Source of the DNA: Butyrivibrio sp. YAB3001
Lineage (GTDB): Bacteria > Bacillota > Clostridia > Lachnospirales > Lachnospiraceae
Direction: 5' to 3'
NCBI RefSeq assembly: GCF_900112195.1
Contig: NZ_FOKR01000004.1
Coordinates: 1 to 64,000 of the forward strand
DNA length: 64,000 bases
Below the pieces are notes generated by a model. That model did not search any database. It was not told the origin of the DNA and was given only the letters and a program-made list of their open reading frames with translations. The translations under genes and the position numbers were made by a program. Shown here piece by piece: positions 18,265 to 60,690 of this stretch (position 1 is its first letter; every line of letters starts with the position of its first letter).

Positions 18265-18267
18265 CTT

Positions 18268-20030: not shown

Positions 20031-20046
20031 TTCAATAATTGCGATA
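20031..20046 (-). promoter_or_regulatory. Candidate AraC-regulator operator (shared xylan motif, copy 4)
   Basis: Minus-strand TATCGCAATTATTGAA is the most divergent copy of the motif, about 147 nt before the GH43 start. A TTGACT that could be a -35 box lies downstream at 19992-19997, without a good -10. It shares a 307-bp divergent intergenic region with the copy at 20089. Confidence 0.4.
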
Positions 20047-20088
20047 GCAGCCTCCAGAAGCCGCATTTAGCAAGGATTTGAGAGTATG

Positions 20089-20139
20089 TAGCAATAATTG
20101 AGTGGAACATTTTGACCCCCAAAAGCTATATATTAATGT
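20089..20139 (+). promoter_or_regulatory. Shared xylan motif (copy 5) and candidate promoter for the esterase-GH43 gene
   Basis: TAGCAATAATTGAG plus GAACAT (20089-20110) matches the copy before araC. It is followed by TTGACC (20112-20117), a 16-nt spacer and TAATGT (20134-20139). The chosen start codon lies about 50 nt further on. The motif directly upstream of -35 is the geometry expected for an AraC-type activator. Confidence 0.5.
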
Positions 20140-20191
20140 GAAGAAAAAAGAACTTTTTTACTATATAAATCATGTATTGGGAGAGAGAAAA

Positions 20192-23065: not shown

Positions 23066-23101
23066 TGATGCTACGGATATAATGATATGAAGTTCTAATT
23101 T

Positions 23102-23176
23102 GATGTCAGAGTCATAAGGGCATTCGCCAACTCTTAATTAAACTTGATGTTGGTTCAGACTTTTGGCTCTGACATC
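23102..23176. repeat. Intergenic palindromic repeat, copy A
   Basis: This 75-bp unit starts GATGTCAGAG and ends CTCTGACATC, giving a 10-bp perfect terminal inverted repeat. Its interior shares CATAAG/CATAAA and a TTCAGACTTTT stretch with copy B at 25972-26047. The unit is non-coding and lies after the esterase-GH43 stop. Confidence 0.75.
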
Positions 23177-23269
23177 GTTACTGTTCACTCGCATATAGCT
23201 CGTTCCAATAACTCATTAGCGCATTCATTCCAATTCTTCTTCGCCGAAGAAATGCGCTCACTTCTAAAT

Positions 23270-23313
23270 CATCCTACAGAAATGCGCAGCACAGTGCGCA
23301 TTTCTGTAGGATG
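23270..23313. terminator. Perfect 19-bp intergenic hairpin, probable bidirectional terminator or REP-like element
   Basis: CATCCTACAGAAATGCGCA pairs perfectly with its complement across a 6-nt GCACAG loop. No immediate U-run follows, although the next 25 nt are AT-rich. It lies before the GH5 promoter, and with the palindrome TTCTTCGCCGAAGAA (23236-23250) makes the 334-bp gap from 23066 rich in structure. Confidence 0.55.
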
Positions 23314-23344
23314 AGTAATTTAACATTATATTATTTTTCATGTG

Positions 23345-23371
23345 TTCAAATTTGGGATTAGCCGTTATAAT
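23345..23371 (+). promoter_or_regulatory. Candidate promoter of the GH5 gene
   Basis: TTCAAA (23345-23350) and a perfect TATAAT (23366-23371) are separated by 15 nt, 28 nt before the chosen ATG. The -35 and spacing are weak. No shared xylan motif was seen here, so this gene may lie outside the AraC regulon. Confidence 0.45.
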
Positions 23372-23399
23372 AGGAAGAAAAAAAAACGGGGAGTGTATT

Positions 23400-24770
23400 A
23401 TGATAAGAAAAAAAATAATGGTAATCCCCCTTGTAGCCGCTCTTGCACTTGGCGGGCTTCAGGGATGCGGGAATAGTTCCAACAGTTCTTCTGCAGATGC
23501 GAATACTGATAGTAATACCTCAGCACAAAATGATGCTCCGCAAGAAGATAATGCCGCTGATAATTCAGCAGATGCAGCATCAGATTCTTCCAGCACTTCG
23601 GAAAATGAAAGTAATGAAAGTTCTAATGATGATGCTGCAAACAGTACATCAGAAGCGGATTCTTCCGATTCATCAGGTACTGTATCAACTATTAGCATCA
23701 AAGGCATCACAGAAAGAAGTGATGAAATGAGAGATATTTCAGCCGCTGACCTTGTTGCTGAAATGACTGCAGGCTGGAATCTTGGTAATACTCTTGATGC
23801 CACAGGCAGTAATGACCTTTCTTCAGAAACAAGCTGGGGAAATCCCAAAATAACGAAAGAGCTGATTGATACTGTATGTGAAAAGGGTTTTGATTCTATC
23901 AGACTCCCCATTACCTGGGGCAATCATGTTGGCTCAGCTCCTGATTACACTATTGATCCCGAATGGATGGACAGAGTTGAAGAAGTTGTAAATTACGCCC
24001 TCGATGACGGAATGTATGTCCTTATTGATACCCATCACGAAGAAATGTGGCGAGTTCCGGACAAGGCCAAGATTGATGAAGTCGATGCAGAAAATATAGC
24101 TATCTGGAATCAGATTGCAACACGCTTCAAGGATTACGGAGATCACCTGATATTTGAGGGGCTTAACGAACCAAGAACTAAAGGCAGCGCTGCTGAATGG
24201 TCCGGCGGCACCTCAGATGAAAGAGATTGCGTCAATCAGCTTAACAAGAGCTTTGTTGACACAGTTCGTGCAACCGGTGGTAATAATGAAAAACGTCTTT
24301 TGGTTGTAACAACTTATGGCGATACTATTATTCAGGCTGCTGCAAGTCAGCTTGAGATTCCTGAGGATGAGCACATCGCTGTTGCTATCCATGCTTATGA
24401 ACCTTATGATTTCACTTTTGCTTCAGGTACTTCTTCAGAAATAGACAAATGGACAGGAAGCCGTGATGGTGATATCAACACGTTGATCCTTAACCTGCGC
24501 AAAAACTTCCTTAATAAAGGAATTCCGGTTCTTTTAACCGAATATGGCGCAGTAAACAAATCAGAAAATACAGACGAAGTTAGAAAATGGGTTACTTCTT
24601 ACGTTCAGAAAGCTACTCTCGCCGGTGTTCCATGCTTCTGGTGGGATAACGGAATATATGACCAGGACGGTGAGAAATTCGCCATCCTCAACAGAAAAGA
24701 TTTAACCTGGTACAGAGAGCCTGTAGTTGATGCTATTATCCGCTCAAGCTATGCTAATAAGCAGCACTAA
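23400..24770 (+). CDS. GH5 endoglucanase/hemicellulase lipoprotein
   Basis: This 456-residue surface lipoprotein cleaves beta-1,4-glucan or a related backbone such as xyloglucan. GGGGAG precedes the ATG at 23400 by 6 nt and a lipobox GLQGC follows; the open frame reaches back to 23340 over the promoter and is not used. A Ser/Asp/Asn-rich acidic linker fills about residues 28-105. The GH5 barrel opens with GWNLGNTLDA and has acid/base Glu257 (EGLNEPR) and nucleophile Glu381 (LLTEYGAV), a pattern typical of GH5 subfamily 4. No binding module is present. It extends the substrate range of the locus beyond xylan. Confidence 0.9.
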   Translation: MIRKKIMVIPLVAALALGGLQGCGNSSNSSSADANTDSNTSAQNDAPQEDNAADNSADAASDSSSTSENESNESSNDDAANSTSEADSSDSSGTVSTISIKGITERSDEMRDISAADLVAEMTAGWNLGNTLDATGSNDLSSETSWGNPKITKELIDTVCEKGFDSIRLPITWGNHVGSAPDYTIDPEWMDRVEEVVNYALDDGMYVLIDTHHEEMWRVPDKAKIDEVDAENIAIWNQIATRFKDYGDHLIFEGLNEPRTKGSAAEWSGGTSDERDCVNQLNKSFVDTVRATGGNNEKRLLVVTTYGDTIIQAAASQLEIPEDEHIAVAIHAYEPYDFTFASGTSSEIDKWTGSRDGDINTLILNLRKNFLNKGIPVLLTEYGAVNKSENTDEVRKWVTSYVQKATLAGVPCFWWDNGIYDQDGEKFAILNRKDLTWYREPVVDAIIRSSYANKQH

Positions 24771-32720: not shown

Positions 32721-33716
32721 TCAATGAATATCAAGGTCAGTTTTAAGCTTTTCTCTAAGTTCTTCTACTGTCAAAAAAACTTTATTTGTTCCCGAGTTGT
32801 ATTCAAATCCAGGTTCTACCAATTTACCGCCAGGTATTATAAAAGTCTTGCTCCACCAATCATAATGAGGATAAATTATATAATTTTTCTCATATTCATA
32901 GGTTCTGACAGAATCCTCTCTGGTGATCATAACCTCATGAAGCTTCTCTCCTTCCCTTATCCCGACTTCTTTTAGTTCGCAGTCTTCCTTCATTGCCTTT
33001 GCCAGATCAGTAATTCTAAAAGAAGGAATCTTGGAAATATATGTTTCTCCACCACGAGAATTTTCAAGAGCCTGAACAACTAATTCAACTCCCTGTTCAA
33101 GGCTTATCCAAAATCTAGTCATGTTGAAATCTGTTATAGGAAGAACACTTTCACCTCTATCTATTATGCTCTGAAAGAAAGGTATGACTGAGCCTCTTGA
33201 TCCTGCAACATTCCCGTATCTTACCACAGAAAATGTTGTGCCATTTGCTCCACCGTACGCATTGGCTGCGCAGAATAATTTATCGGACACAAACTTGGTT
33301 CCGCCATATAAATTAATTGGACTGACTGCTTTATCAGTTGAAAGAGCTACAACTTTGTCCACTTCTTCATCAAGCGCAGCTTCAATCACGTTAACAGCCC
33401 CCATTATATTAGTTTTAATCGCTTCATTAGGATTATATTCGCATGCCGGCACCTGCTTTAATGCAGCAGCATGAATAACATAATCCACGCCTTTCATAGC
33501 GCGTCGTAAGCGAGCTGCATCTCTTACATCGCCGATAAAAAATCGCAAAGCATCCTCATATTCTTTATAGCGATTCGCCATATGATATTGTTTAAACTCA
33601 TCACGGCTATAAATAATCAGTTTCTTGGGGTTATAATGAGCAAATACATACTCAACAAAATGATGACCAAAAGAACCAGTTCCGCCCGTCACTAAAATAG
33701 TCTTATTATTCAGCAT
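32721..33716 (-). CDS. pseB: UDP-GlcNAc 4,6-dehydratase, PseB/FlaA1 type
   Basis: This 331-residue short-chain dehydrogenase has TGGTGSFGHHF (NAD site), STDKAVSPINLYGGTK (with the Lys that replaces the usual Tyr partner), GNVAGSRGSVIPFF and IREGEKLHE. These are diagnostic of inverting 4,6-dehydratases of the PseB group. It converts UDP-GlcNAc to the 4-keto-6-deoxy sugar that starts pseudaminic-acid-like and other dideoxy amino sugars. It sits next to the cupin and aldo/keto reductase genes. The DegT aminotransferase at 55 kb could act next. Confidence 0.88.
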   Translation of the reverse strand: MLNNKTILVTGGTGSFGHHFVEYVFAHYNPKKLIIYSRDEFKQYHMANRYKEYEDALRFFIGDVRDAARLRRAMKGVDYVIHAAALKQVPACEYNPNEAIKTNIMGAVNVIEAALDEEVDKVVALSTDKAVSPINLYGGTKFVSDKLFCAANAYGGANGTTFSVVRYGNVAGSRGSVIPFFQSIIDRGESVLPITDFNMTRFWISLEQGVELVVQALENSRGGETYISKIPSFRITDLAKAMKEDCELKEVGIREGEKLHEVMITREDSVRTYEYEKNYIIYPHYDWWSKTFIIPGGKLVEPGFEYNSGTNKVFLTVEELREKLKTDLDIH

Positions 33717-34132: not shown

Positions 34133-35803
34133 TTATTCTTCTTTCTTTTTTGCGCATACAAGATATTGCAGCATATCAAAAGCGCTTCTGTCGACTACTC
34201 CTTCAATTCTCGTAAGCTTATCAAAGAAGTCGCCATACTTTCTTGAATTCCTGAGATGATCAGGCAAGCCATATAGATCTACTATCTCATAACCTCTTTC
34301 CGTAAATAATTTCACCACTTCATTTTGTGTGAAAAATCTCAAATGAGTTCTGTCCAAAACGCCTGCATCCATATAAGTAAAATTACCATGAAGAAGTTCA
34401 TATATAACTTCAGCATCCAAAATATTCGGTATACTTGCGATTATGCATCCACCAGGTTTTAAATGCTTTTTAAGATTATCAACAAGTGTATACGGATCAA
34501 CCAGATGCTCCAGCACATCTCCAAAAAGAATATAATCATACTCCTCATCATCCGCAAAATTATATGTTTCAATATTTCCGTACTCAATGTTCACATAATT
34601 CTTGGCTATTTCTGTAAGTTTTTGAACTATTTCAACTCCTTTTACTCTTACATTAGGATATCTATATTGTATATTTAAAAGTGTAGTTCCAAGGCCTGCG
34701 CCAACCTCAAGGACATCAAATTCTTCATCAATATCTTTCTTGAACAGGTCTATCATTTCATTTCTGACATTCATATAATATTCAGCCAGGAATCCCCATT
34801 TTTCAGTAAATTTATCCCTGTCAGAATCCAAGTACTTTTTATTCTTAGCATTAAGCTCTTCCCTAATTTTGCGATAGACATAACTATTCCAGCAAGCCAC
34901 GTTATGATAGCCGCTTTTAATAATATTTAAGGAAAGCTCAGTAAAATTAGAACCATCACTGAGCATGTATTCATCTATAGGGAATACTTTATATATAACA
35001 TCCCGCTTAATCAGAACAAAGTTACCATCAACAGAGCATTTTGTCTCATATGGACGTGCCATAGGAATATTATTTAGAAGTGCAAAGTCATAACTCTCAC
35101 TCTCGCTATGAACATTTTTCTGTGGGCGTATTTGCATATAGAATGCGAAATTAGCTACTGCACTGCATGCTCCAATATCATCACTCTCATATAGTCCAAG
35201 TCTCAAATTGTATAATGCATTAGGCATCATTACAACATCACTTCTTAAGAGGAATACATCATTGTCCTTATTAGATTTCAGAACAGCTTCATTTATTAAA
35301 CCAATCCTTTTTTCAAAATCTAAAGCTTCGATTTTCTCAATCTCATAACAATCCCTAAAACAATTGTCCTTTATTCCGTCCAGGCATTTTTTCAAATATT
35401 CTTTTTCCTCATCATAAATGACTAAAATAGTAACCTTTCTTACATTAGGCTTAGCCATTTCTCTATAATCATTTAATATAGTCTCTACCGTTTCAATATC
35501 TTCTTCAGTGCCGTACTTTCTTGCAAAATAAAGAGCATTTTCATATGTCAGATAAGCCTTTTCCGGATTTGTCCTGCTATAATAATTTCCCAACAAAATG
35601 TATAATTCATAATTAAAGATATTGAGCTTAAGCCCAGATTGAATTATCTCAAACAAACTTTCAGAATCATCAAAATGTTCAAGGATCGTTGCCCCGATTA
35701 TGCACATATCTTCATCAAGTTTTTTCCCCTCAGTATAATTCAAAAATAATTCTAAAGCTTCTTCCCATGATTCATTCTGAATTGCTGATAAAATATTTTC
35801 CAT
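34133..35803 (-). CDS. TPR - GT2-like - SAM methyltransferase fusion protein
   Basis: This 556-residue protein has three parts. About 110 N-terminal residues form TPR-like helices. Residues 125-330 form a GT2-like fold that lacks the usual acidic signature near its start. A class I methyltransferase follows (DVLEVGAGLGTTL motif I, FGDVLEHLVDP, and DRTHLRFFT near the end). It is a close relative of the protein at 59001-60665, sharing the opening MEN/EHILSA-Q-ESW-EAL and most of the methyltransferase. AAAGGG lies 9 nt before the ATG. It probably adds or methylates a sugar on a protein or polymer; the weak GT2 signature leaves the transfer activity in doubt. Confidence 0.75.
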   Translation of the reverse strand: MENILSAIQNESWEEALELFLNYTEGKKLDEDMCIIGATILEHFDDSESLFEIIQSGLKLNIFNYELYILLGNYYSRTNPEKAYLTYENALYFARKYGTEEDIETVETILNDYREMAKPNVRKVTILVIYDEEKEYLKKCLDGIKDNCFRDCYEIEKIEALDFEKRIGLINEAVLKSNKDNDVFLLRSDVVMMPNALYNLRLGLYESDDIGACSAVANFAFYMQIRPQKNVHSESESYDFALLNNIPMARPYETKCSVDGNFVLIKRDVIYKVFPIDEYMLSDGSNFTELSLNIIKSGYHNVACWNSYVYRKIREELNAKNKKYLDSDRDKFTEKWGFLAEYYMNVRNEMIDLFKKDIDEEFDVLEVGAGLGTTLLNIQYRYPNVRVKGVEIVQKLTEIAKNYVNIEYGNIETYNFADDEEYDYILFGDVLEHLVDPYTLVDNLKKHLKPGGCIIASIPNILDAEVIYELLHGNFTYMDAGVLDRTHLRFFTQNEVVKLFTERGYEIVDLYGLPDHLRNSRKYGDFFDKLTRIEGVVDRSAFDMLQYLVCAKKKEE

Positions 35804-43920: not shown

Positions 43921-44047
43921 GATAGGATTAAGACATGAAAAACTCGCAACCAAAGATGATATCGCTTACGGCATCACTGATTGGCTGTTCACAGTTATTA
44001 CTTCTCTTTTTTCAGTGGTGATCCTTAACAACTCATTTCATCAATGA
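43919..44047 (+). pseudogene. C-terminal remnant of a second gene, head-to-head with the first
   Basis: A plus-strand frame from about 43919 reads LRHEKLATKDDIAYGITDWL and a hydrophobic tail TVITSLFSVVIL to a stop at 44045-44047, running 23 nt into the end of the next gene. No ribosome site precedes it. It looks like the tail of a membrane or polymer-synthesis protein; the family is not recognised. Confidence 0.4.
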
Positions 44048-45185
44048 TTTTCAAAAGCTCTATAGCACGATTCCTCCACGAATGTCTCTCAGTAGCTTTC
44101 ACCATGCCATTATGGGCTATTTTTTCATTATTAGAATGCTTAAGTATTATCTCTGGTAACCTTTCAATTTCTTTTAACGAATATAAAATCAAGTCCTCCC
44201 CATCTATAAAAGCTTCCCGCAGTGCAGGTGTCTGATCTGAGACTGCAATACACCCAGCCATCATAGTATCAAGCACCCTCTCTGTAATAGCATCCTTATG
44301 CCAGGTCATAACATTTAATGACATCTTTGAATTATCATATATCTCATCAACACCAGATGCCTCTAACGAAGGATGAATCCTCAAGTATGAGTTATCCACA
44401 AAAGGAGAGTTTCTCCAGCTATCTCCAAAAACATCTACTGTAATACCATTGTCTATAAGAGTTTTTATAATTTCTTCACGATATATTCTTGCTGCCCCGC
44501 GGTCTGCAAGTTTATGTACTTTGGCAAGTTCCTGAACAAACTGCTCATCGCTCACCTTGGCTCCAAGACTAGTCAGTGTCTTTTCAAATGCTACTTCTGT
44601 TGTTAAATCCGGCTCCGTTACCAGTAAATCCAAATATCTGTCAATTATCACTTTTGTAGTTTCATCCGCAGAATTAAAACTACTTATCGGCTCTCTCCAA
44701 TCCAGGAAACTGCCGACAAAAGACAGCGCATACTTTCGTTTCTGAAATGGAATAATGGTCTCTGCCTTTCTACCGCCGGGAGGTAAAAAGAATGCCTTAA
44801 CGCCTCTATAATAATGATCAATGAATTTCACATAGTTTCTATCTTGAGTAAGGATATAGTAATTCTGTGGAATTCTTTTAACATGTCGATGATAAAACGC
44901 CGGGTAATCAGTCCAATAATTAAACTTAGGTCCATAAAAACTGTCAAATATTAGCTCTTTACTATCAGGATATGCACTATAAAAAATATTCTCCATAAAG
45001 GCTATTATTGCCTTGTATGACCTTCCAGAATAATCTTCAATGGCTGCGTCTGCCGGATTAAGGTAAATAACCTCTTCCCCAAGTTCTAAAAACGCATCTC
45101 TAAGCTGCTCGCTAAAAGACTTTAGAATCCCGTAACATAATGAAACATCTCCTTCAAATAATAATATTGGCAACTTATCTCCCAT
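44025..45185 (-). CDS. CgeB-like glycosyltransferase at the end of the acylation cluster
   Basis: This protein of about 386 residues has the GT-B/CgeB layout: YYILTQDRNYVKFI, YALSFVGSFLDW, VDVFGDSWRNSPFV and KMSLNVMTWHKDAITERVLD with CIAVSDQTPALRE. The frame is open to a TTG at 45209, but AAGGAG lies 7 nt before GTG 45188 and 10 nt before ATG 45185. It directly follows the lipoyl-acyltransferase gene, so it may transfer the sugar that protein acylates. It is more like the protein at 60691-61845 than the CgeB pair at 38.8 and 61.9 kb. Confidence 0.75.
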   Translation of the reverse strand: MGDKLPILLFEGDVSLCYGILKSFSEQLRDAFLELGEEVIYLNPADAAIEDYSGRSYKAIIAFMENIFYSAYPDSKELIFDSFYGPKFNYWTDYPAFYHRHVKRIPQNYYILTQDRNYVKFIDHYYRGVKAFFLPPGGRKAETIIPFQKRKYALSFVGSFLDWREPISSFNSADETTKVIIDRYLDLLVTEPDLTTEVAFEKTLTSLGAKVSDEQFVQELAKVHKLADRGAARIYREEIIKTLIDNGITVDVFGDSWRNSPFVDNSYLRIHPSLEASGVDEIYDNSKMSLNVMTWHKDAITERVLDTMMAGCIAVSDQTPALREAFIDGEDLILYSLKEIERLPEIILKHSNNEKIAHNGMVKATERHSWRNRAIELLKIIDEMSC

Positions 45186-45225
45186 CACGCCGGTACTCCT
45201 TGGATACAACTGTTCCTCTTCATTC

Positions 45226-46326
45226 TTAGTACTTATTTTTTATAACACTGCCTGATTCTAAATTATTCGTTACTGCGTATCCCACAGGCACAACAACATC
45301 ATCTCCAATAATCGCCCGATTTACTACCGCTACACCAGCAGGAATAATACAACTATCACCTATCACATCTGCCCCTGATGTGAAAACCCCCGGTGCAATC
45401 AGATTATGACTGCCTATGATATTATGATGCCCAATATTTGTCCCATAACTGATAGAATTATTATCTCCAATTCGTGTCAGCGTTCCGATATAACAGCCAC
45501 TTCCTATAATATTTCCAACACCAATCTGAACACCTCTGCGTATTTCCGCACTCTTGGAGATAGCATTTGTAAAACTCACTCCTCTTTTAGTGTAATCTTC
45601 AAATACTTGCCGCCTAAACTTCATCGAACTAAAGTTCGCACCTATAGAAATAATTACACTATCATAAAAATCCGAACCATATTTATCAGGGAAATCTTTT
45701 ATACCACAATCCAAAACAGTATACTTATAATTTCTTAATTGTTTTACATTGTCATCAACAAGACCAACAATTTCAATGTCAGGATAATCAAGAAGAATAT
45801 CAATTACAACTTCAGCCCCATATCCAGCGCCAATAATAACTACTCTCTCTCTTTTCAGCTCAAATACCGGCTTCTGCTTCTTCTCTGAAACCAGATTATG
45901 ATTCGCAGCATAGGTCTCAACATCCTTTTCTTTTACAACCCCACCACCTTTTTCGTCTGCTATTTGAGCTATACTAATTCCAAGTTCGGTCGCAAGCGCA
46001 ATCGCTTTCTTAGTTGCATTCACTTCCACGATGTTACCCGCCATGGACGCATTATTTCCTGATTTTTTATATGTAGCAAGTTCAGCTTCAGATTCAAATA
46101 TAATTGCTATTGTATCTCCGCTCTTTCTCTCATCAAAAGGTTTGCATAAAGGCAAAAAATAACCATCTCTTGGGGATACAACATCACTTGTTGCTTTTGT
46201 ATTTTCCGCTGACAGAACCACCTCACCTGTCCTTACAAATTCACCCTCTGCAAACAATATTTCAGTTACTTTTGCCTTATCATCATTAACATCAATAAGT
46301 GGCATCTTAATTTCAGTATAATTCAT
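45226..46326 (-). CDS. Lipoyl domain - E3-binding domain - NeuD/PglD-type sugar N-acyltransferase fusion
   Basis: This 366-residue protein replaces the E2 subunit of the adjacent 2-oxoacid dehydrogenase genes. Residues 1-80 are a lipoyl domain with the modification site ENTKATSDV (Lys44). Residues 103-141 match the peripheral E3-binding domain (ATKKAIALATELGIS, then VVKEKDVETY). From residue 160 a PglD/NeuD Rossmann region begins (VVIIGAGYGAEVVIDIL), followed by left-handed beta-helix hexapeptide repeats to the end. His300 in NIGHHNIIGS sits where the catalytic His of PglD lies. The normal E2 catalytic domain with HHxxxDG is absent. Known relatives of the C-terminal half acetylate nucleotide amino sugars from acetyl-CoA. 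I infer that here the acyl group comes from lipoyl-lysine. Confidence 0.88.
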   Translation of the reverse strand: MNYTEIKMPLIDVNDDKAKVTEILFAEGEFVRTGEVVLSAENTKATSDVVSPRDGYFLPLCKPFDERKSGDTIAIIFESEAELATYKKSGNNASMAGNIVEVNATKKAIALATELGISIAQIADEKGGGVVKEKDVETYAANHNLVSEKKQKPVFELKRERVVIIGAGYGAEVVIDILLDYPDIEIVGLVDDNVKQLRNYKYTVLDCGIKDFPDKYGSDFYDSVIISIGANFSSMKFRRQVFEDYTKRGVSFTNAISKSAEIRRGVQIGVGNIIGSGCYIGTLTRIGDNNSISYGTNIGHHNIIGSHNLIAPGVFTSGADVIGDSCIIPAGVAVVNRAIIGDDVVVPVGYAVTNNLESGSVIKNKY

Positions 46327-47230: not shown

Positions 47231-48198
47231 AAACCAATTCCAACCTTAATTGTGTTTACTAATTCTTCTAAGCCTGGAAGAATTTCTAATTCCGCACTTT
47301 GAGCTGCCGGTATAAAACTATCCCTTGCTCCTAATCTGAAAACTTTATTACCATATCTTTCTTGTATAGCAAAGCCAATCTCAGATCCCCATCCGAATGA
47401 AGAAACACCCTCTTCCAAAATACACACCGGACCAGAATCCACAGCGCTTACAATTGATTCCACATCAGAAATCAATGTTGGGATTATGATTTCGATATTA
47501 ATTTCATCTTCATACAGCAGTTTTTCCATTGCCTTTAGCGCCATTTCAGATAATCCCCCATATGTTATCAGGGCTAGTTCAGGTGCATCGTCAACAGGTT
47601 GTATCTTAATAATAGGAAATCCCTTTAAGGTGGTCATAACCTTCTTTATCCAAAAAGATCCCCTATCCATCAGCAATTCCCTTGGATAATCCAATTTATT
47701 TTCTACAAAAAGCGTAGGGACGCCGCTCTCTATTGAAGTCTGCAACACTTCTCCCGGAGAATACGCAATTGATGGCGCAACAACTTGAATTCCGGGAATA
47801 CCCATAAACATTTTCTCAAGTGATTGAGAATGCGTAGCACCATAGCCCCTATATGCCCCCGAAGGGCACCTTAGTACAAAATGGATATCCTGTTTATATA
47901 GTTCACTAAATTTAGCAGCATGGTTAACCATCTGATCTGCCGCTAAAGTGATAAAATCGCCAAACATAATCTCTACTGAAACGTAACAACCATAAAGAGC
48001 CATTCCCACGCCCAAACCAGTAAATCCCTGCTCGCACATGGGGGTACCTATAATATTTGCTGGATATTTGTCTGAAAGTCCCTTAGTAACTTTAAACGCA
48101 CCTCCATAAGGCTCTTGAATATCTTCGCCAATAAAATATGCATTATGCTCTTTGATAATTCTTTCGATATTTGCCCGTAAATCAGCTAGGTATTTCAC
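47227..48198 (-). CDS. 2-Oxoacid dehydrogenase E1 beta subunit
   Basis: This 323-residue subunit has FIGEDIQEPYGGAFKVTKGL, GTPMCEQGFTGLGVGMAL (Glu56 at the position of the ThDP-activating Glu), GIPGIQVVAPS and CILEEGVSSFG in the transketolase C-terminal domain. All belong to the E1 beta family. It overlaps E3 by 17 nt and E1 alpha by 4 nt, so the subunits are coupled. Gene order is E3 - E1 beta - E1 alpha - E2-like, unlike the common alpha-beta-E2-E3 order. Confidence 0.9.
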   Translation of the reverse strand: MKYLADLRANIERIIKEHNAYFIGEDIQEPYGGAFKVTKGLSDKYPANIIGTPMCEQGFTGLGVGMALYGCYVSVEIMFGDFITLAADQMVNHAAKFSELYKQDIHFVLRCPSGAYRGYGATHSQSLEKMFMGIPGIQVVAPSIAYSPGEVLQTSIESGVPTLFVENKLDYPRELLMDRGSFWIKKVMTTLKGFPIIKIQPVDDAPELALITYGGLSEMALKAMEKLLYEDEINIEIIIPTLISDVESIVSAVDSGPVCILEEGVSSFGWGSEIGFAIQERYGNKVFRLGARDSFIPAAQSAELEILPGLEELVNTIKVGIGL

Positions 48199-49615
48199 CT
48201 GTTCCCACCTCTTTCAGATATAGTATTGCAGCCTCCTTAAATGCTTCAGTAAGAGAAGGATGTGGAAAAATACTGTTTGAAATATCATTAGCTGTTTTTC
48301 TCATTTCAATCCATTCTTTGCACAGAGATATCATTTCAACAGCATGAGAACAGACTAATTCTGCCCCAACTAATTCACCAGAATGTTGATCAAATATCAG
48401 TTTTACATATCCATCATCCGAATTCTCTATAATTGCCATCCCATTGCCTTTTAGAGAATACTTTGCTGCGAAACACTTATCTGGATCAGTCTCTTTCACT
48501 CCAACTGAGGCAATTTCTGGATTCATATAAATGCAACTGGGAACCATACCAACCTTTCCATTATGTATTTTTCCTTCCCCCATAACAGAACTCATCACAT
48601 TCAACGCTGCCATTTCGCCTTGATATTCTGCTGTATAAGCAAGTTGAATTCCGCCACAAACATCACCAGCGGCATATACTTTGGGATTCGAGGTTTTTAG
48701 ATATTCATCTATTACTATCGCTCCATCCCTGACATTTACTGATAATCCCTGAATCAGCTGATTATCTAAATCAGGTTCCCTTCCTATTGACAGCAGAACT
48801 TTATCTGTAAGTATTTCCTCCGTATCTGACCTTATTGGGGAAGTTCGTTTTTGAATTCTGACAATAGTTTCATCATCCTCTTCCTCAATGCCAACTACTT
48901 CACAATCTGTGTATATCTTGACACCTTTTTTTCTCAATATTTTTGTAACTGTCTGAGATACTTCTACAGAAAAGCTTTTTTTCAGGATATGATCTTCCCT
49001 TTCAATAATGATCGTTGTAGCCCCAAAATCTGCAAGAAATGACGCAAATTCAACTCCTATTATTCCGCCTCCAACTATCACTATTGACTTAGGAATTAAA
49101 TTACTCTTTACAAACGCTTTATCTGTTGTAAATACGTTGGAATACTCATTTGCAAACACGCTTGGAACTACTGGTTTAGCTCCTGTCGCTATAAGTAAAA
49201 ATTGGTATTCTAGCCGTTTTTCCTCTCCACTATCATTCTTAACAACAACCATTTTATCGTCGGCCAATATTGCTTTTCCTTGATAGACATCAATGCTATT
49301 CTTTTTCAATGCTTGCATAAGTCCATCATGAAGCCCGCTTACACTGCAATTGATTTTTTCTTCAAATACATCCGCTAATTTTTCCCTCGTAAATAACCTT
49401 GTATCATTTTTGAAAAAACTATTTCCATTCTTGTATTCCATAATCAGTTGACGATAAGCTTTTGTTGGAATACATCCAACATTTAGGCAAGTCCCTCCTA
49501 TTTTCTTTGCTTCAATGACTGCTACACTTAACGCCTGACTTGCTTTTAATGCCGCGCTATATCCGGCGATTCCGCCTCCGATTATTATCAAATCATACTT
49601 TTCAATTTCACTCAT
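48182..49615 (-). CDS. lpdA: Dihydrolipoamide dehydrogenase (E3)
   Basis: This 477-residue flavoprotein reoxidises dihydrolipoyl groups with NAD. FAD site IIIGGGIAGYSAA, redox disulfide GGTCLNVGCIP (Cys43, Cys48), NAD site VGGGIIGVEFA, FAD-binding AAGDVCGG and the C-terminal HPSLTEAF (catalytic His) are all present. GAGGAG lies 10 nt before the ATG at 49615; the frame is also open to 49633. It overlaps the lipoate ligase stop by 8 nt. Unlike many E3s it has no fused lipoyl domain; the only lipoyl domain in the cluster is on the acyltransferase. Confidence 0.93.
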   Translation of the reverse strand: MSEIEKYDLIIIGGGIAGYSAALKASQALSVAVIEAKKIGGTCLNVGCIPTKAYRQLIMEYKNGNSFFKNDTRLFTREKLADVFEEKINCSVSGLHDGLMQALKKNSIDVYQGKAILADDKMVVVKNDSGEEKRLEYQFLLIATGAKPVVPSVFANEYSNVFTTDKAFVKSNLIPKSIVIVGGGIIGVEFASFLADFGATTIIIEREDHILKKSFSVEVSQTVTKILRKKGVKIYTDCEVVGIEEEDDETIVRIQKRTSPIRSDTEEILTDKVLLSIGREPDLDNQLIQGLSVNVRDGAIVIDEYLKTSNPKVYAAGDVCGGIQLAYTAEYQGEMAALNVMSSVMGEGKIHNGKVGMVPSCIYMNPEIASVGVKETDPDKCFAAKYSLKGNGMAIIENSDDGYVKLIFDQHSGELVGAELVCSHAVEMISLCKEWIEMRKTANDISNSIFPHPSLTEAFKEAAILYLKEVGTGEIPS

Positions 49616-50630
49616 GAATAGGCATCTCCTCACTAATCATTTTGCTAATATCCTTCAAAATGACCACTTCTTCATCCTGAATGCCGTAATATTCTTTTAT
49701 TTCTGTAAACACATTCCTAATTGACAACATGTTCAAAGGTCGATTCTTAAGTTGCATCTCTATCTTGTCAAAAACATCCGTGCACAATGAATCTGATAGT
49801 ATCTTCGCAGATTTAATAGTTTGACAATCAGATTCAATATTGAGATTACAGCTTCCCCATTCAAATCTCCTCTTCATACAGAACTTTGTTTCTATTTTTT
49901 TCTCATAAATCCACTCTGATGACTTATATTTTTGTACAAATCCTTTCAGTTCAACATTGTCCAGGTATTCTGGTTCAATTATCAAAACATCGATTTTTTC
50001 ATCTTCACTATGCGTTTTACTCAATAAATATGCCTTTTTGACAAGAGCCTTCTTAACCTCATCGACAGTTAAATTCCTGTTTATATCTGATAAATTGATT
50101 ACTCTTGATTTTACAGAAGAAATTCCCTTAGACTTGATTTTTTCTACATCAGGATTTAACACTGTTTCCATGCAATCAATATCTGTGTTCACCAACAAAC
50201 AACCATGTGTATATGAATACCCTTGTCCCATGTAATAGGCTAATCCAGAAACTTTTCTCCCTTTAATTTCTATATCATTTCTTCCATTAGCATAGGCATT
50301 AATACCCAAATAATTAAGCACATCAACTACATATTCAATAGTTATTTTCTTATAATCAATATTGTCTTTATAATAAACTGTATAATTAATATTACCTAAA
50401 TCATGATATACAGCCCCACCACCAGACATTCTACGGACTATATCTATGTTGTTTATTGCTGCATATCTGACATCACATTCGTAATAAGCATTCTGATTTC
50501 TTCCTATTACTACTGTTTTTCTGTTTTGCCATATAAATAGAAAAGGATCACTCCCTTCTTTTCCCAGCAAATATTCTTCCAATGCCAAATTACAGGCTGC
50601 ATCATGACATTCAGAAATGATTACTTCCAT
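49608..50630 (-). CDS. lplA: Lipoate-protein ligase A
   Basis: This 340-residue enzyme activates lipoate with ATP and attaches it to a lipoyl-domain lysine. The signature RRMSGGGAVYHDLGN (66-80), the catalytic-lysine segment GRNDIEIKGRKVSGLA (Lys126) and a C-terminal accessory domain are present, full length for the family. It is translationally coupled to E3. In this context its target should be Lys44 of the acyltransferase fusion, making the cluster self-sufficient if lipoate can be scavenged. Confidence 0.92.
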   Translation of the reverse strand: MEVIISECHDAACNLALEEYLLGKEGSDPFLFIWQNRKTVVIGRNQNAYYECDVRYAAINNIDIVRRMSGGGAVYHDLGNINYTVYYKDNIDYKKITIEYVVDVLNYLGINAYANGRNDIEIKGRKVSGLAYYMGQGYSYTHGCLLVNTDIDCMETVLNPDVEKIKSKGISSVKSRVINLSDINRNLTVDEVKKALVKKAYLLSKTHSEDEKIDVLIIEPEYLDNVELKGFVQKYKSSEWIYEKKIETKFCMKRRFEWGSCNLNIESDCQTIKSAKILSDSLCTDVFDKIEMQLKNRPLNMLSIRNVFTEIKEYYGIQDEEVVILKDISKMISEEMPIHE

Positions 50631-50684: not shown

Positions 50685-51635
50685 TCAGTAGAGCTGTCCT
50701 TTTATAATATCTAAAACCTCTATACTCCTAACTGCACTCTTACCACATGTAATCGGCGATGTTTTATTTTCTATACAATAACCGAAATGCTTTAGTTCTG
50801 CTCTTAATGGTTCAATATTTGGAACAAATACTTTAGTCATCATATTTTCTTTCTTGAACGCAGAACCATTCCCCAATGACTTTAAAACTGTACTTTTCAG
50901 AATGCTTATCTTCTTATCAAGCAAATCAACCTTTATAAAAGAATTCTTACAATGAATATCAATCCTTCTAAGCTTATCCTCCGTCGCGCGGCTACTTACG
51001 ATAGACGCCACTACACCGTTGTCAAATTTAAAAAGCGACTGAACATAATCCATATAATTGTGACTGTATACTCTTGTACCGGCCGATGACAGGCTCACTA
51101 TTTCATTGTTTGGAAGAATAGCATTCAACAAGATATCAACATCATGTATCATCAGATCATAAACAACATCTGTGTCTTTTATTCTGTTATCCTTTGATGA
51201 GCAGCGCTCAATGTTGACTGCAATTATTTCTTCTTTTTGGAGCACTTTCTCCATTTCAATAACAGCACTGTTAAAGCGCTCAACATGTCCAACCATAAGG
51301 ACTCTATCCAGGTTCTTATACGCCTCCACAATTTCATTGGCATCCTGAGTTGATAATGAAAGTGGTTTCTCAACTAAAAGATGTTTCCCAGCACTCGCAG
51401 CTTTAAGCGCTATCTGTTTGTGTAAAGAAGAAGGGGCAGCAATTATTACAGCGTCACACTTATCAATAAGTTCTTCTTCAGATGCTGTTGCAATATCTGA
51501 AACTTCTAACGACTTTACTCTACTTTCATCAGGATCGTATACAGCACATAATTCAAATCGGTCATGCATCTCCTTTGTTAAACGGATATGATTTTTGCCC
51601 ATGTTACCAGTGCCAACTATTCCAACCTTAACCAT
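50685..51635 (-). CDS. Gfo/Idh/MocA oxidoreductase, UDP-GlcNAc 3-dehydrogenase-like
   Basis: This 316-residue enzyme has the Rossmann motif GIVGTGNMGKNH, the EKP motif (89-91), VGHVERFNSAV (His117) and DLMIHDVDILL. The VGHVERFN pattern is typical of UDP-N-acetylglucosamine 3-dehydrogenases (GnnA-like, WbpB-related). It would oxidise C3 of UDP-GlcNAc, giving a ketone for the DegT aminotransferase and then an amine for acylation. It lies 54 bp upstream of lplA, the first gene of the acylation block. Confidence 0.8.
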   Translation of the reverse strand: MVKVGIVGTGNMGKNHIRLTKEMHDRFELCAVYDPDESRVKSLEVSDIATASEEELIDKCDAVIIAAPSSLHKQIALKAASAGKHLLVEKPLSLSTQDANEIVEAYKNLDRVLMVGHVERFNSAVIEMEKVLQKEEIIAVNIERCSSKDNRIKDTDVVYDLMIHDVDILLNAILPNNEIVSLSSAGTRVYSHNYMDYVQSLFKFDNGVVASIVSSRATEDKLRRIDIHCKNSFIKVDLLDKKISILKSTVLKSLGNGSAFKKENMMTKVFVPNIEPLRAELKHFGYCIENKTSPITCGKSAVRSIEVLDIIKGQLY

Positions 51636-55030: not shown

Positions 55031-56224
55031 TTAATACTCATTACAAGCTTTTATTATCTGCCCAACTTCCTCATCAGTAAGCTCCGGGAATATTGGAAGA
55101 CATACCGTCTGCCCACATATCTTCTCTGCAACTTTAAGACATGTATCACCTGCCCCCAGAGCCTCAAAAGCCCTTTGCTTATGAAGTGGCACAGGATAAA
55201 AATTGCCTGCACCAATTCCATTATCATTAAGATATTTGATGAAGCCTTCTTTATCCTCGACAAGCACTGCAAACTGATGAAAGCACGAAACTCTGTCTGC
55301 AAATTCAACCGGCGGTACTGTTATTTTTTTATTATCGATTCTTTCTTTATATTTCTTTGCTATAGCAGCTCTTTTATCATTAAATAACTCAAGCATTCCA
55401 AGCTTCACATTCAAAACAGCAGCCTGAATGCTATCAAGCCTCGAATTTCCTGCAATAAAATAGTTGTAATATTTACACGGATCATACAAAGGATCTGAAG
55501 ACTGTTTTTCCATTTCAGCCAGTTCAGGAACTTCTTTCCCGTATAATTTTTCGTAAGCGATAGCAGCTTGCTTTCCTGCAGCATGGGCCTTCAGACACCT
55601 GCATATATTTGCCAGTTCATCGCTATTTGTGGTTATCATTCCACCGTCACCAAAGCCACCCAGATTCTTTGTAGGATAAAATGAAAAACACCCCAATGTG
55701 CCTAAATTTCCTGCTTTCTTCCCCTTATAGGAAGCCCCGATTGCCTGACATGCATCCTCAATCACAGGAATGCCATATTTTTCACCAATCTTATTTATTT
55801 CATCCATATCCGCCGGAGTTCCAAATATATGTACAGGAAGTATGGCTTTCGTTTTACTTGTGATTTTACTTCTAATTGAATCTACATCTACGTTATAGTT
55901 TTCATTATTGACATCAGCAAATACCGGCACTGCGCCTATTTGTGCAATTGCTTCCGGCGTTGCAAAAAAAGAAAATGCGCTTGTGATAACTTCATCTCCC
56001 GGCTTTATCCCTACTGCCAGCAGCGCTATCCTAAGGGCATCCGTTCCATTTCCACAAGTAATCGCATGTTTAACACCAATATACTCTGCAACAGCTTTTT
56101 CAAATTCCTTAACAGCTTTTCCCTCTACATACTGAGTCGACCTCATTACCTCAAGCACAGCTGCTTCTATTTCATTTTCAACAAGCTCATATTGTCTTGA
56201 TAAATCAAAGAATGGTATTTTCAT
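55031..56224 (-). CDS. DegT/DnrJ/EryC1 PLP aminotransferase (nucleotide amino-sugar synthesis)
   Basis: This 397-residue sugar aminotransferase has FFDLSRQYE, CGNGTDALRIAL, VIEDACQAIGASYKGKKAGNLG split over the cofactor region, the Schiff-base Lys in FSFYPTKNLGGFGDGG (Lys186) and YNYFIAGNSRLDSIQAA. It resembles WbpE/GnnB-type enzymes acting on 3-keto UDP-sugars, although the subgroup also includes 4-keto enzymes. It would supply the free amine for the lipoyl-linked acyltransferase. It is in the same leftward cluster, three genes upstream of the UDP-GlcNAc-3-dehydrogenase-like gene. Confidence 0.88.
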   Translation of the reverse strand: MKIPFFDLSRQYELVENEIEAAVLEVMRSTQYVEGKAVKEFEKAVAEYIGVKHAITCGNGTDALRIALLAVGIKPGDEVITSAFSFFATPEAIAQIGAVPVFADVNNENYNVDVDSIRSKITSKTKAILPVHIFGTPADMDEINKIGEKYGIPVIEDACQAIGASYKGKKAGNLGTLGCFSFYPTKNLGGFGDGGMITTNSDELANICRCLKAHAAGKQAAIAYEKLYGKEVPELAEMEKQSSDPLYDPCKYYNYFIAGNSRLDSIQAAVLNVKLGMLELFNDKRAAIAKKYKERIDNKKITVPPVEFADRVSCFHQFAVLVEDKEGFIKYLNDNGIGAGNFYPVPLHKQRAFEALGAGDTCLKVAEKICGQTVCLPIFPELTDEEVGQIIKACNEY

Positions 56225-56241: not shown

Positions 56242-57981
56242 TCAAATGACTCTTTTGCACAAGAAATAGTATTGGAATACTCTAAGTTCATCTTTATCTT
56301 TCACATCAAATTCTCTGGATATTTTTTCAACAAATTCTGCTGGTTCAGAAGCGTTATTATAATTGCGATCTATTTTTTCAACTTCCAGACCAGATCTTCT
56401 TAACATTTCAATAGCTGTGTCTTTTGTAAAGAAACGCAAATGTGTTCTGTCTAAAATTCCATCATCACCGTAATCAAACCTACCATCTATTAAAAGAAGT
56501 TCGATAACAGTACGATTTCTAATATTTGGCAAACTTACAATAAAATGGCCATTTTGCTTTAAATATGGCATAAATCTCTCAATAGTCTTTTGGGGATCAC
56601 GCAAGTGTTCAAGAACATCAGCACATATTATGTAGTCAAACTGTCCTTCTTGATATGGAATATCCATTGTCTCAACATCTCCCTGGACTATATCCAGCAT
56701 CGTTTTTCCAACCTCTGCCACTTCCCTGTCGTACTCAACTCCGCACACCCTTGCATTAGGCCATAAACGCCTTATTCTATTTAATGTATTTCCCATAGCG
56801 CAGCCAAGTTCCAATACCCTTATCGGAGTGTTATAATCCTCCTCAATAAATGAAAGCAGTTCATTTCTTGCACGCCCGGAGTATTCTCCGTTAAATCCCC
56901 ATTCATCTTTAAAAATGAGCTTGTACTCCTCAATTATCTCATCTGAAATGCCATATATTTCCATTCTATCCATAGTCTTAAAAATATACACATTGAATGG
57001 GAGCATGACTTCATAACCGGCTTTATGCGCACGTATACAAAAATCTTTATCTTCCAAATAACCTCTTAGATATTTTTCATTCAAAACTCCAATATCATCT
57101 ATTACTTCTCTTTTTATCAGCATTGCAAAATCAGAAACATAACTAATTTTTTCAAGTGAAGATCTCATCGGGGCATTAACTGTAAGCGCCGCTTTAATTG
57201 CCTCATCCAGATCATCACTTCCTGAAGGCATCTTCTGATCACTTATGAATTCATTAGTAATAGCGCCTACAATTCCAATTCTTTTATCTGAATACATTCC
57301 CAACATCTGATAGAAGAAAGAATTATCGATGAGAAACGAATCCGCATCCAGTAAAAGAACATCGTTTCCCTCATTACTCATCTTAATTCCCTTATTAGCA
57401 GCTTTGGTATAACCAATATTTTCTTCATTAAGCACACATGTGATTCCGCTACATTCTCCAATCCATTGCCTTGTTTCATCTGTAGAACCATTATCCACCA
57501 CGATTATTTCGCTAACTTCTTTAGGAACAGTATCAAAAATGCTATTTAAACATCGCTTTAATTGTTCTGACTGATCACACGAAACAATAACAAATGAAAC
57601 CGGCCTAATCTCTGCTCCAACTGAAACTTCATTCTCAATATACTCAATTATCAGATTTCTATCTTCGCTGTTCTCGCAATAATACAAGGCATGATAAAAG
57701 CATATAAGGGCCTGTTCTGGGTTAATTCTGGCATAGTATTCCCCTAACATAAGATATAACTCATAATTTTTATGATCACGCAAAAGCCCTATAGTTATCA
57801 AATCAAAGGCTTTGTCATACTCGCCATTCTCCATAAACACTGATGCCGCAATAATGCAATATTCAACGTCATCTTTTAGCTTTGCTATCTCATCATGAAG
57901 ACATTGACTTAATTCTTCATATGCTTCCTTTACCATATTGTTCTGAAGATAATTCTTAACTTTCTCCTTGATACTATCCAT
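56242..57981 (-). CDS. TPR - GT2 - SAM methyltransferase fusion protein
   Basis: This 579-residue protein has N-terminal TPR-like helices, an intact GT2 domain (VSFVIVSCDQSEQLKRCLNS, VVDNGSTDET, LLLDADS) and a C-terminal methyltransferase (RVLELGCAMGNTL, CADVLEHLRDP, DRTHLRFFT). The GT2 part is more complete than in the related proteins at 34.1 and 59.0 kb. AAAGG lies 6 nt before the ATG at 57981; the frame is open to 58014. It probably adds a sugar and caps or modifies it by methylation. Confidence 0.82.
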   Translation of the reverse strand: MDSIKEKVKNYLQNNMVKEAYEELSQCLHDEIAKLKDDVEYCIIAASVFMENGEYDKAFDLITIGLLRDHKNYELYLMLGEYYARINPEQALICFYHALYYCENSEDRNLIIEYIENEVSVGAEIRPVSFVIVSCDQSEQLKRCLNSIFDTVPKEVSEIIVVDNGSTDETRQWIGECSGITCVLNEENIGYTKAANKGIKMSNEGNDVLLLDADSFLIDNSFFYQMLGMYSDKRIGIVGAITNEFISDQKMPSGSDDLDEAIKAALTVNAPMRSSLEKISYVSDFAMLIKREVIDDIGVLNEKYLRGYLEDKDFCIRAHKAGYEVMLPFNVYIFKTMDRMEIYGISDEIIEEYKLIFKDEWGFNGEYSGRARNELLSFIEEDYNTPIRVLELGCAMGNTLNRIRRLWPNARVCGVEYDREVAEVGKTMLDIVQGDVETMDIPYQEGQFDYIICADVLEHLRDPQKTIERFMPYLKQNGHFIVSLPNIRNRTVIELLLIDGRFDYGDDGILDRTHLRFFTKDTAIEMLRRSGLEVEKIDRNYNNASEPAEFVEKISREFDVKDKDELRVFQYYFLCKRVI

Positions 57982-58051
57982 ATGACACCTTTCCTCTAAA
58001 AAACGATAACCCAATCTGACATACTATCAGCGTTTCGAAATTGACCCTGGT

Positions 58052-59000: not shown

Positions 59001-60665
59001 TTAAATCACTTTTGCACAAACAACATACTGAAAAGTATCAAACTGCTCTTTGTCAGCCACTTCCTCAATTGCTAATAACTTGTCAAAAAAAGCATTGTAA
59101 CTATCCGTATTATCTGTAAGGCTCTTTAATGAGGACATTTCTACTATTTCGTATCCTCTCTCTTCAAACAGTTTCTTTACTTCCTTCTTGGTAAAAAATC
59201 TCAAATGAGTTCTGTCAAGCACTCCTGAATCCTGATATTCAAAATTCCCACGTAGAAGATCATAAATAACTTTAGCATTCATAATATTGGGGATACTTGC
59301 AATTATGCAGCCATCACTTTTCAGATTCTTCTTTAATCTATCGACCAACGAATATGGATCAACTAAATGTTCTAAAACATCCGCAAATACGATATAGTCG
59401 TATTTCTCGTCTTCGCCAAAGGAATACGTCTCAATATTTCCACATTCCATATTCATATAATTTGATGCCATTTCGGCGACATTCTCCACAAGTTCAATCC
59501 CTTTTATATTTGCATGAGGGTAAAGATATTTGATTCTTGCAAGTGTTGAACCTAGTCCGGCTCCTACCTCAAGAATATCAAGCACTGCCTCATTGTCCTC
59601 CCGTATCATTTTAATGGGTTCTCTTCTCATGTTTAGATAATAATCAGCATAAAAGCCCCATTTATCCTGAATTTTCTCTTTGTCTCTATCCTGATAGGGA
59701 GTATTTTTCTTTAGCATACTTTCCCTGATAAATCTGTATACAAATGAATTCCAGCACACATAATTTTTATATCCATTGGAAATAACCTTAAGACCAATGT
59801 CTGTATATTGTCCCCTGTCAGATAGTAACGAATCATCCAACGGAAAAACCTTGTCTTTGACTTCATTCTTAATTAACAAACATGCGCCATCAATAACGCA
59901 CTTGCTTTCATAAGGAAACTCAGATGGTATATTATTTACCGCAGAAAACTCAAATGCTTCCTTCGGATTTTGTATTGTTCTTTCCTCTGGCATCTGATAG
60001 AAAAAGGCACAATTAGAAACAGCACTGCAAGCACCAACATCATTTTTATCATATAAGGCCATACGAAGTGAAAATAAAGCATTTGGCATCATCATAACGT
60101 CACTGCTAAGCAACAAAATATCGTTTTGTTCATTCAGAGACTTAATACTCTCATTGATTATTTCAGCTCTTTTTTCAAAATCACTAACATCTATACATAG
60201 CAAATCATAACATTGCTCAAAACATGTAGTTCTTATGCTATCAATGCACCTTTCTAAAAAATCTTTCCCTTCATAATAAATGACAACAATAGATGTTTTA
60301 TTAACAGAAGGCTTTTCTTTCTCATTAAAATCGTCAATTATAGCTTCTATCGCCTGTACATCCTCATCAGGTCCGTGTTTTTTAGCGTAATACAATGCAT
60401 TTTCATAGGAAAGCAGTGCTTTATTACTGTTATCAGTTCTATAGAAATTACCAAGTAGCAGGTACAATTCATAGTTATGATAATTAAATCGCAGTCCTGT
60501 CTGAATCAGGTCAAAAAGACTATTTCTGTCATTAAAATACTCAAGTATCGTTGCTCCTATGATGCATAGATTCTCGTCAAGCTCATGAGTTTTGGTATAT
60601 TCAATAAAAAGATCCAGGGCCTCATTCCACGATTCTCTTTGCACTGCTGATAAAATGTGCTCCAT
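59001..60665 (-). CDS. TPR - GT2-like - SAM methyltransferase fusion protein
   Basis: This 554-residue protein is closely related to the 34133-35803 product: it opens MEHILSAVQRESWNEAL, and shares the GT2-like middle with a weak signature and the methyltransferase (DILEVGAGLGSTL, FADVLEHLVDP, DRTHLRFFT). GGAGAG lies 6 nt before the ATG at 60665; the frame is open seven codons further. The duplicate, in a separate cluster 24 kb away, implies two parallel modification routes or an old segment duplication. Confidence 0.78.
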   Translation of the reverse strand: MEHILSAVQRESWNEALDLFIEYTKTHELDENLCIIGATILEYFNDRNSLFDLIQTGLRFNYHNYELYLLLGNFYRTDNSNKALLSYENALYYAKKHGPDEDVQAIEAIIDDFNEKEKPSVNKTSIVVIYYEGKDFLERCIDSIRTTCFEQCYDLLCIDVSDFEKRAEIINESIKSLNEQNDILLLSSDVMMMPNALFSLRMALYDKNDVGACSAVSNCAFFYQMPEERTIQNPKEAFEFSAVNNIPSEFPYESKCVIDGACLLIKNEVKDKVFPLDDSLLSDRGQYTDIGLKVISNGYKNYVCWNSFVYRFIRESMLKKNTPYQDRDKEKIQDKWGFYADYYLNMRREPIKMIREDNEAVLDILEVGAGLGSTLARIKYLYPHANIKGIELVENVAEMASNYMNMECGNIETYSFGEDEKYDYIVFADVLEHLVDPYSLVDRLKKNLKSDGCIIASIPNIMNAKVIYDLLRGNFEYQDSGVLDRTHLRFFTKKEVKKLFEERGYEIVEMSSLKSLTDNTDSYNAFFDKLLAIEEVADKEQFDTFQYVVCAKVI

Positions 60666-60690
60666 TTGCTTCTCTCCATGCGGCATTTAA

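Follow-up and report, generated by a model that had tools for sequence, protein, structure and literature searches.

A lipoyl domain fused to a NeuD/PglD-type acyltransferase in Butyrivibrio: predicted E2 of a complex for CoA-free N-acylation of nucleotide sugars

Can a 2-oxoacid dehydrogenase complex deliver the acyl group on its lipoyl arm to a sugar rather than to coenzyme A (CoA)? This question is raised by a gene of Butyrivibrio sp. YAB3001 located in the first 64,000 nucleotides of contig NZ_FOKR01000004.1 (this whole stretch is hereafter the window), which encodes a 366-amino-acid (aa) fusion protein in which a lipoyl domain and an E3-binding-like domain precede a NeuD/PglD-type sugar acyltransferase. 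The original prediction, made from the sequence of the region, held that an acyl group generated on the lipoyl-lysine passes directly to the amine of a nucleotide sugar, bypassing CoA. Our analysis supports this interpretation as the best explanation of the locus, one in which we infer the transfer itself, the acyl group and the sugar. Three findings strengthen it: the lipoate economy of the whole genome, the absence of the CoA loop and the repeated linkage to E1 genes. We consider it quite probable that the fusion acts as E2 in a 2-oxoacid dehydrogenase complex of its own, one that hands acyl groups from lipoyl-lysine directly to a nucleotide-sugar amine and dispenses with CoA.

A conserved fusion that lacks the CoA loop

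Pfam detects in the fusion Biotin_lipoyl (PF00364; residues 5-74, 23.1 bits, cut-off 22.1), the lipoyl domain expected of an E2, followed by PglD_N (residues 161-243, 37.3 bits, cut-off 23.4) and Hexapep (residues 284-315, 28.7 bits, cut-off 27). In Foldseek comparisons of the AlphaFold2 (AF2) model (mean predicted local distance difference test score, pLDDT, 91.5), the lipoyl part resembles the E2 lipoyl domains 3crk_C, 1y8n_B and 1qjo, and the solved structures nearest to the NeuD part are those of N-acetyltransferases such as PerB and VioB. PglD_N, the left-handed beta-helix fold and a His at the catalytic position (His300) together mark this part as NeuD/PglD-type. Pfam, the AF2 model and conservation within the family thus agree on the predicted combination, in one protein, of a lipoyl domain bearing Lys44 and an acyltransferase bearing His300. 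The absence of a CoA acyltransferase core was likewise borne out, Pfam finding no match to the E2 catalytic core (PF00198) in the protein. The reading frame has the coordinates originally assigned to it; its strand, then left unstated, is minus, and a plus-strand reading of the interval was ruled out by several in-frame stops. Biotin, rather than lipoate, on Lys44 was also rejected: no Met adjoins the lysine, whereas the EAMKM and ESMKM domains also encoded in this genome have one.

Between the two parts, a diverged E3-binding domain appears to be present, as judged from structure prediction and profile comparison. The AF2 model contains helices at residues 106-115, 119-126 and 133-142, in the region to which this domain had been assigned (residues 103-141), and E3_binding (PF02817) matches 6 of 38 family members at E<=1 (best E 0.0046). 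A canonical E2 carrying PF00364, PF02817 and PF00198 (L021, from genome G717) served as the reference for hhalign: family residues 92-150 align with its E3-binding region (P 5.6e-6), and residues 1-150 align with the whole E2 (9.9e-13), covering the lipoyl and E3-binding domains and placing Lys44 on the lipoyl lysine of the E2.

The original prediction called for a search for this architecture and its neighbours; by homology, 138 fusions were found, with E1 genes beside the fusion in further loci. The window protein and L015, a distant relative, were used as queries and returned 102 and 55 hits, respectively, 157 together, among which are 92 (clade 1) and 46 (clade 2) fusions, ranging down to about 21% identity. 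Glu41, Lys44 and His300 are retained in 138 of the 139 long homologues (at least 290 aa); the one exception, P0157, lacks a lipoyl part and was excluded from the fusion set. The 18 shorter hits provided the unfused comparison, and one of them, P0073, is probably a truncated fusion. Residue 191 is Asp in 135 of the 139 long homologues and, by alignment, may correspond to the Asp of the nucleotide site in Pcryo_0637. The model of the clade-2 fusion has a middling mean pLDDT of 75.1.

Within sampled genomes, the fusion is rare. At E<=1e-40, and with the genome of origin counted, fusion models detected it once among 391 genomes of the class, twice among 397 of the family and once among 79 of the genus. 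In a phylum sample at 1e-35, 75 of 398 genomes match; among the matches listed, only that of the window reaches the lipoyl part, the others beginning at model position 111 or later, a few of them in frames of more than 300 aa. In most genomes, these surveys scored at most five candidates within the E limits of 1e-40 or 1e-35, and diverged fusions may escape them. Full-length fusions (at least 80% of the query) were not found in plasmids (P0001, P0145) or phages (P0123 only), nor was any relative of the fusion found in viral contigs.

Most fusions end where ordinary NeuD proteins run on into V-G-N-P-A-K. In Pcryo_0637, as described in PMC8040287, the Pro of the G-x-P motif switches from trans to cis on CoA binding, and the coil that carries it joins the last strand. 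This motif is found after residue 350 in none of the 138 fusions (P0114 is truncated and uninformative). Among the matches listed, it occurs after residue 170 in 28 of 29 unfused NeuD proteins of the phylum, which are part of a longer list (L064 lacks it); all 9 over-cut-off NeuD proteins of relatives have it, and it is missing from L034 and L035, two shorter NeuD matches below the cut-off. Of two stricter definitions, [GS]xPA within the final 40 residues picks out 2 of the 139 long proteins (P0093 and P0157), and G-x-P-[ACS] within the final 60 picks out 0 of 138 fusions and 9 of the 18 shorter hits; we prefer G-x-P because the Pro is the residue that moves.

Operon, related loci and lipoate economy

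The fusion gene closes a tight minus-strand run in the order LplA-E3-E1beta-E1alpha-fusion, joined by overlaps or a 10-bp gap and lying in a glycan locus, with a Gfo/Idh oxidoreductase gene preceding the cassette and a glycosyltransferase-like gene following it. In the window and in L011, a locus from a metagenome-assembled genome (MAG) titled Lachnospiraceae, the fusion thus shares its operon with E1 and E3 partners of a 2-oxoacid dehydrogenase. Gaps among the cassette genes and their next neighbours are 54 bp or less, too small for an acyl carrier protein (ACP) gene, and no gene for an ACP acceptor of the kind that marks QncL/SclQ systems was found within the cassette. The catalytic-position Glu and both His residues of E1 are kept in all four loci compared (window, L011, L012 and L015), according to our own mapping by alignment to human pyruvate dehydrogenase (PDH) and branched-chain 2-oxoacid dehydrogenase (BCKDH) chains; in the Geobacillus E1, H128beta has been argued to donate the proton when lipoate is acylated, with H271alpha assisting (PMC2663715). 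The redox disulfide motif is present in the E3 of the window and of L011. The best matches of the two E1 subunits differ, that of E1alpha being PDH and that of E1beta BCKDH.

E1 genes adjoin the fusion in three further loci. L011 has the five genes in the same order, 40-64% identical to those of the window, and no E2 core (PF00198) was found in its genome, a MAG of unstated completeness. Upstream in L011 lie UDP-GlcNAc dehydrogenase-, Gfo/Idh- (two), DegT- and WecB-like genes and, beyond them, open reading frames (ORFs) that we name Wzy/Wzx- and glycosyltransferase-like. Inspection of the same glycan locus also revealed class I aminotransferase-, 2-hydroxyacid dehydrogenase- and ATP-grasp-like ORFs (L023:7392-10528), which could supply an unusual 2-oxoacid. 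L012, from a MAG titled WOR-3, has E1beta-E1alpha-fusion. In L015, from a genome of the same family as that of the window (G717), E1alpha and E1beta form one 638-aa ORF (L015:7231-9147) followed by a clade-2 fusion that is 24% identical to that of the window; this pair is a second form of the system.

Linkage with E1 extends beyond these loci. A search with the window E1beta gave 73 homologues at E<=1e-90, and 28 of the 92 clade-1 fusions (27 without that of the window) match an E1beta homologue in the exact length of the longest contig. The same matching gave 0 or 1 in eight offset controls, 0 of 46 for clade-2 fusions and 0 of 19 for other hits. Although indirect, this constitutes strong evidence that the E1beta and fusion genes travel together. 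A separate NeuD enzyme was sought and rejected: in the window, L011 and L012, a hidden Markov model of unfused NeuD proteins detects the fusions and nothing else; in L023 and L024 it detects nothing, in L015 the fusion plus one 17.5-bit ORF, and in L016 (contig 60-79 kb) a single 39-bit ORF with a GNPGRV tail.

The genome of the window (G000, 99.98% complete) was inventoried for E2 core, LipA, LplA, E1_dh, biotin/lipoyl domains and GcvH. PF00198 has no match in the whole genome, and 10 of 14 control genomes were positive in the same scan; a canonical E2 core that could partner these E1 and E3 subunits, the finding that would have undermined the original prediction, was thus not found in G000 or in the MAG of L011. 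No LipA was found over the cut-off (best 21.5 bits, cut-off 310.25), and the lipoate-ligase model TIGR00545 has one match, the LplA of the operon. Besides the E1alpha of the operon, E1_dh matches two proteins (one above the Pfam cut-off), which were rejected as a second E1alpha, being the N-terminal half of a transketolase and DXS. The four biotin/lipoyl domains are the biotin-type EAMKM and ESMKM domains, one without such a Lys, and that of the fusion, which is the only lipoyl-type domain found; no separate GcvH was found in G000, the single match (23.1 bits, cut-off 22.2) falling inside the EAMKM domain. Given the single operon copies of LplA, E1alpha and a lipoyl-type domain, with neither LipA nor GcvH, all lipoate machinery found in this genome appears to serve the fusion alone, and, with LplA present and LipA not over the cut-off, lipoate would have to be imported for this one operon. 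As a separate observation, the transketolase of G000 is split into neighbouring genes for its N- and C-terminal halves (L006:334-2175).

The predicted acyl transfer and its alternatives

We favour a direct lipoyl-to-sugar transfer because Lys44 and His300 are kept in all 138 fusions, the only lipoate-ligase match of the genome lies in the operon and the CoA loop is missing. In the proposed cycle, LplA would load lipoate onto Lys44, and E1 alpha/beta would decarboxylate a 2-oxoacid on thiamine diphosphate (ThDP) and reductively acylate the lipoyl group. The swinging lipoyl domain would then carry the acyl-dihydrolipoyl thioester to the beta-helix, predicted by homology to be trimeric, where His300 would act as the base for a sugar amine attacking the thioester; E3 would finally re-oxidise the dihydrolipoyl group with NAD+. 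The acceptor step would thus be the sole departure from a normal complex. The acyl group is likelier to be one other than acetyl, because ordinary NeuD enzymes are already supplied by acetyl-CoA.

The acceptor is probably an amino sugar linked to UDP, perhaps with its amine at C3. The Gfo/Idh gene, which resembles UDP-GlcNAc 3-dehydrogenase below the cut-off, is a possible maker of a 3-keto sugar, and the DegT-type aminotransferase, among whose closest PDB relatives are a scyllo-inositol transaminase, QdtB and WbpE, is a possible maker of the amino sugar. QdtB and WbpE make 3-amino sugars, and these resemblances taken together indicate a 3-amino sugar. Pointing away from it are PerB, which acts on 4-amino sugars, and a PseB gene above its curated cut-off in the window (32721-33716). 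PglD and VioB point the same way, also acting on 4-amino sugars (PMC8040287).

A number of observations weigh against a CoA-free transfer by the fusion. Pfam reports no E3-binding domain in the window protein itself, which makes this domain weaker than the original prediction suggested; the NeuD part scores 120.0 bits against TIGR03570 (NeuD/PglB/VioB), below the cut-off of 160.8, and the E3 scores 371 bits against TIGR01350, below that of 408.8. The G-x-P motif is present in 20 of 27 unfused proteins of the common alignment and is also missing from unfused P0091 and P0095-P0097, which are near the window protein, so that its loss is not strictly tied to lipoyl fusion. Moreover, the motif was widened during counting, from 19 of 29 phylum controls with G-x-P-[ACS] to 28 of 29 with G-x-P, among the matches listed. 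The genomes of L012 (G850) and L015 (G717) have a canonical E2 core elsewhere; beside the fusion in these two loci E1 was found, and neither E3 nor LplA, and none of the eight window sugar genes tested was matched in either. Contig-size identity is indirect proof of linkage, and a ligase without LipA would depend on imported lipoate. As to the four unfused proteins without the motif, one is named Woesearchaeota (206 aa, 41% identical); these proteins may use a separate lipoyl or other carrier protein.

Several of these points would fit a NeuD domain that uses acyl-CoA as usual, with the lipoyl and E3-binding domains merely docking to E1 and E3 for local supply or regulation. Indeed, PglD_N, the beta-helix fold and the catalytic-position His are those of acetyl-CoA enzymes, the four unfused proteins suggest that the tail may be dispensable, and two other fusion-bearing genomes contain an E2 core. 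Nevertheless, no E2 core was found in G000 to convert acyl-lipoyl into acyl-CoA, and Lys44 is kept and the tail missing in 138 of 138 fusions, which makes this explanation unlikely. It is similarly improbable that the acyl group passes from the lipoyl arm to a sugar hydroxyl, as with NeuD proper on sialic acid. TIGR03570 spans more than one kind of sugar acetyltransferase, and some homologues are named sugar O-acyltransferase at source, but the nearest solved structures are N-acetyltransferases (PerB, VioB), and aminotransferase and Gfo/Idh genes are present in the window locus as well as in that of L011.

The lipoyl arm might also bear a unit whose source is not a 2-oxoacid, such as a C2 fragment taken from a ketose phosphate in the manner reported for QncN/QncL, resulting in an N-glycolylated sugar. 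In quinocarcin-type pathways, E1-like ThDP proteins with a lipoyl domain supply glycolyl from ketose phosphate (PMC6335953). We regard this possibility as slight, given that E1alpha and E1beta match 2-oxoacid dehydrogenase E1 best. Finally, a chance or non-functional gene fusion, or an assembly artefact, although compatible with rarity in the class, family, genus and phylum surveys, can be practically dismissed, as two homology searches yielded 92 and 46 fusions down to about 21% identity, with conserved active residues and E1 neighbours.

The wider locus and known systems

Around the cassette (Table 1), a large glycan island with many glycosyltransferase-like genes takes in positions 28439-60686 of the window and L016. 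Joins of glycosyltransferase and methyltransferase are seen in the island at 34133-35803 and, by resemblance, at 56242-58014 and 59001-60686. Elsewhere in the window (15372-24770), inspection revealed a carbohydrate-degrading run (xylanase-like, arabinofuranosidase-like, an esterase with a GH43-like part, cellulase-like), with sugar ABC transporter-like genes nearby.

Table 1. Features of the fusion protein and of its gene neighbourhood in the window
Feature	Coordinates	Strand	Basis or remark
Lipoyl / E3-binding-like / NeuD-PglD acyltransferase fusion, 366 aa	45226..46326	minus	
Lipoyl domain, residues 1-80	46087..46326	minus	Pfam, Lys44 conservation, Foldseek
Lipoyl Lys44 codon	46195-46197	minus	Motif ENTKAT, Met not adjacent to Lys
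Peripheral-subunit (E3/E1) binding-like domain, residues 103-142	45901..46020	minus	AF2 helices, family profile comparisons
NeuD/PglD-type domain, residues 158-366 (PglD_N Rossmann and left-handed beta-helix)	45229..45855	minus	
His300, catalytic position	45427-45429	minus	
Glycosyltransferase-like gene	44025..45209	minus	PF13524; directly downstream of the fusion, 16-bp gap
E1 alpha subunit, 297 aa	46337..47230	minus	PF00676
E1 beta subunit, 323 aa	47227..48198	minus	PF02779/PF02780
E3, dihydrolipoyl dehydrogenase-like	48182..49633	minus	Best NCBIfam TIGR01350; redox motif GGTCLNVGCIP
LplA lipoate-protein ligase	49608..50630	minus	TIGR00545, 304.3 bits, cut-off 280
Gfo/Idh oxidoreductase	50685..51635	minus	Nearest NCBIfam UDP-GlcNAc 3-dehydrogenase, 188 bits, below cut-off 450
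DegT-type sugar aminotransferase	55031..56224	minus	PDB relatives include QdtB, WbpE

The system combines two known kinds into a chimera, and the reaction predicted for it is new. With 2-oxoacid dehydrogenase complexes (PDH, BCKDH, acetoin dehydrogenase), it shares E1 alpha/beta, E3, the lipoyl Lys, the E3-binding-like domain and LplA; here, however, a NeuD-type beta-helix replaces the PF00198 core, and the predicted product is an N-acyl sugar, whereas theirs is acyl-CoA. With PglD, PerB, VioB and NeuD (TIGR03570), the fusion shares PglD_N, the left-handed beta-helix and the catalytic-position His, but it adds the N-terminal lipoyl and E3-binding-like domains, lacks the G-x-P CoA loop and scores below the family cut-off.

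By analogy, the nearest precedents would be QncL-type lipoyl-to-ACP systems and LpxD. Delivery by a lipoyl protein to a non-CoA acceptor, ACP, has been described for QncL and proposed for SclQ (PMC6335953), and homologues of NapB/NapD figure in PMC7570522. QncN/QncL/QncM, SclQ1-4 and NapB/NapD share with our system an E1-like ThDP protein and a non-CoA acceptor, as well as, in Qnc and Scl, the lipoyl domain; by contrast, they have an ACP acceptor and an acyltransferase catalytic domain in place of the NeuD domain and the predicted sugar-amine acceptor. LpxA and LpxD are beta-helix enzymes that take acyl groups from ACP (PMC6286764) and act on UDP-glucosamine sugars; only the beta-helix fold is common to them and the fusion, and their carrier is a separate ACP with phosphopantetheine, unlike the lipoyl domain of the fusion, which belongs to the same polypeptide and would be charged by E1. 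The literature searched, mostly without subscription journals, contained no description of such a system.

It seems likely that a 2-oxoacid dehydrogenase complex has been repurposed for glycans, with a trimeric nucleotide-sugar acyltransferase in place of the E2 core, 2-oxoacid decarboxylation coupled directly to CoA-free N-acylation of a sugar and, in this Butyrivibrio, lipoate taken up and attached for the fusion alone. If so, N-acyl sugars would be made from 2-oxoacids by a route that dispenses with CoA, lipoyl-bound acyl groups would have a further use besides CoA and ACP, and lipoic acid would have a role in glycan chemistry. Such a route would explain how bacteria could place unusual acyl groups on their surface sugars without the making of the matching acyl-CoA, and would provide a modular enzyme for N-acyl sugars from 2-oxoacids.
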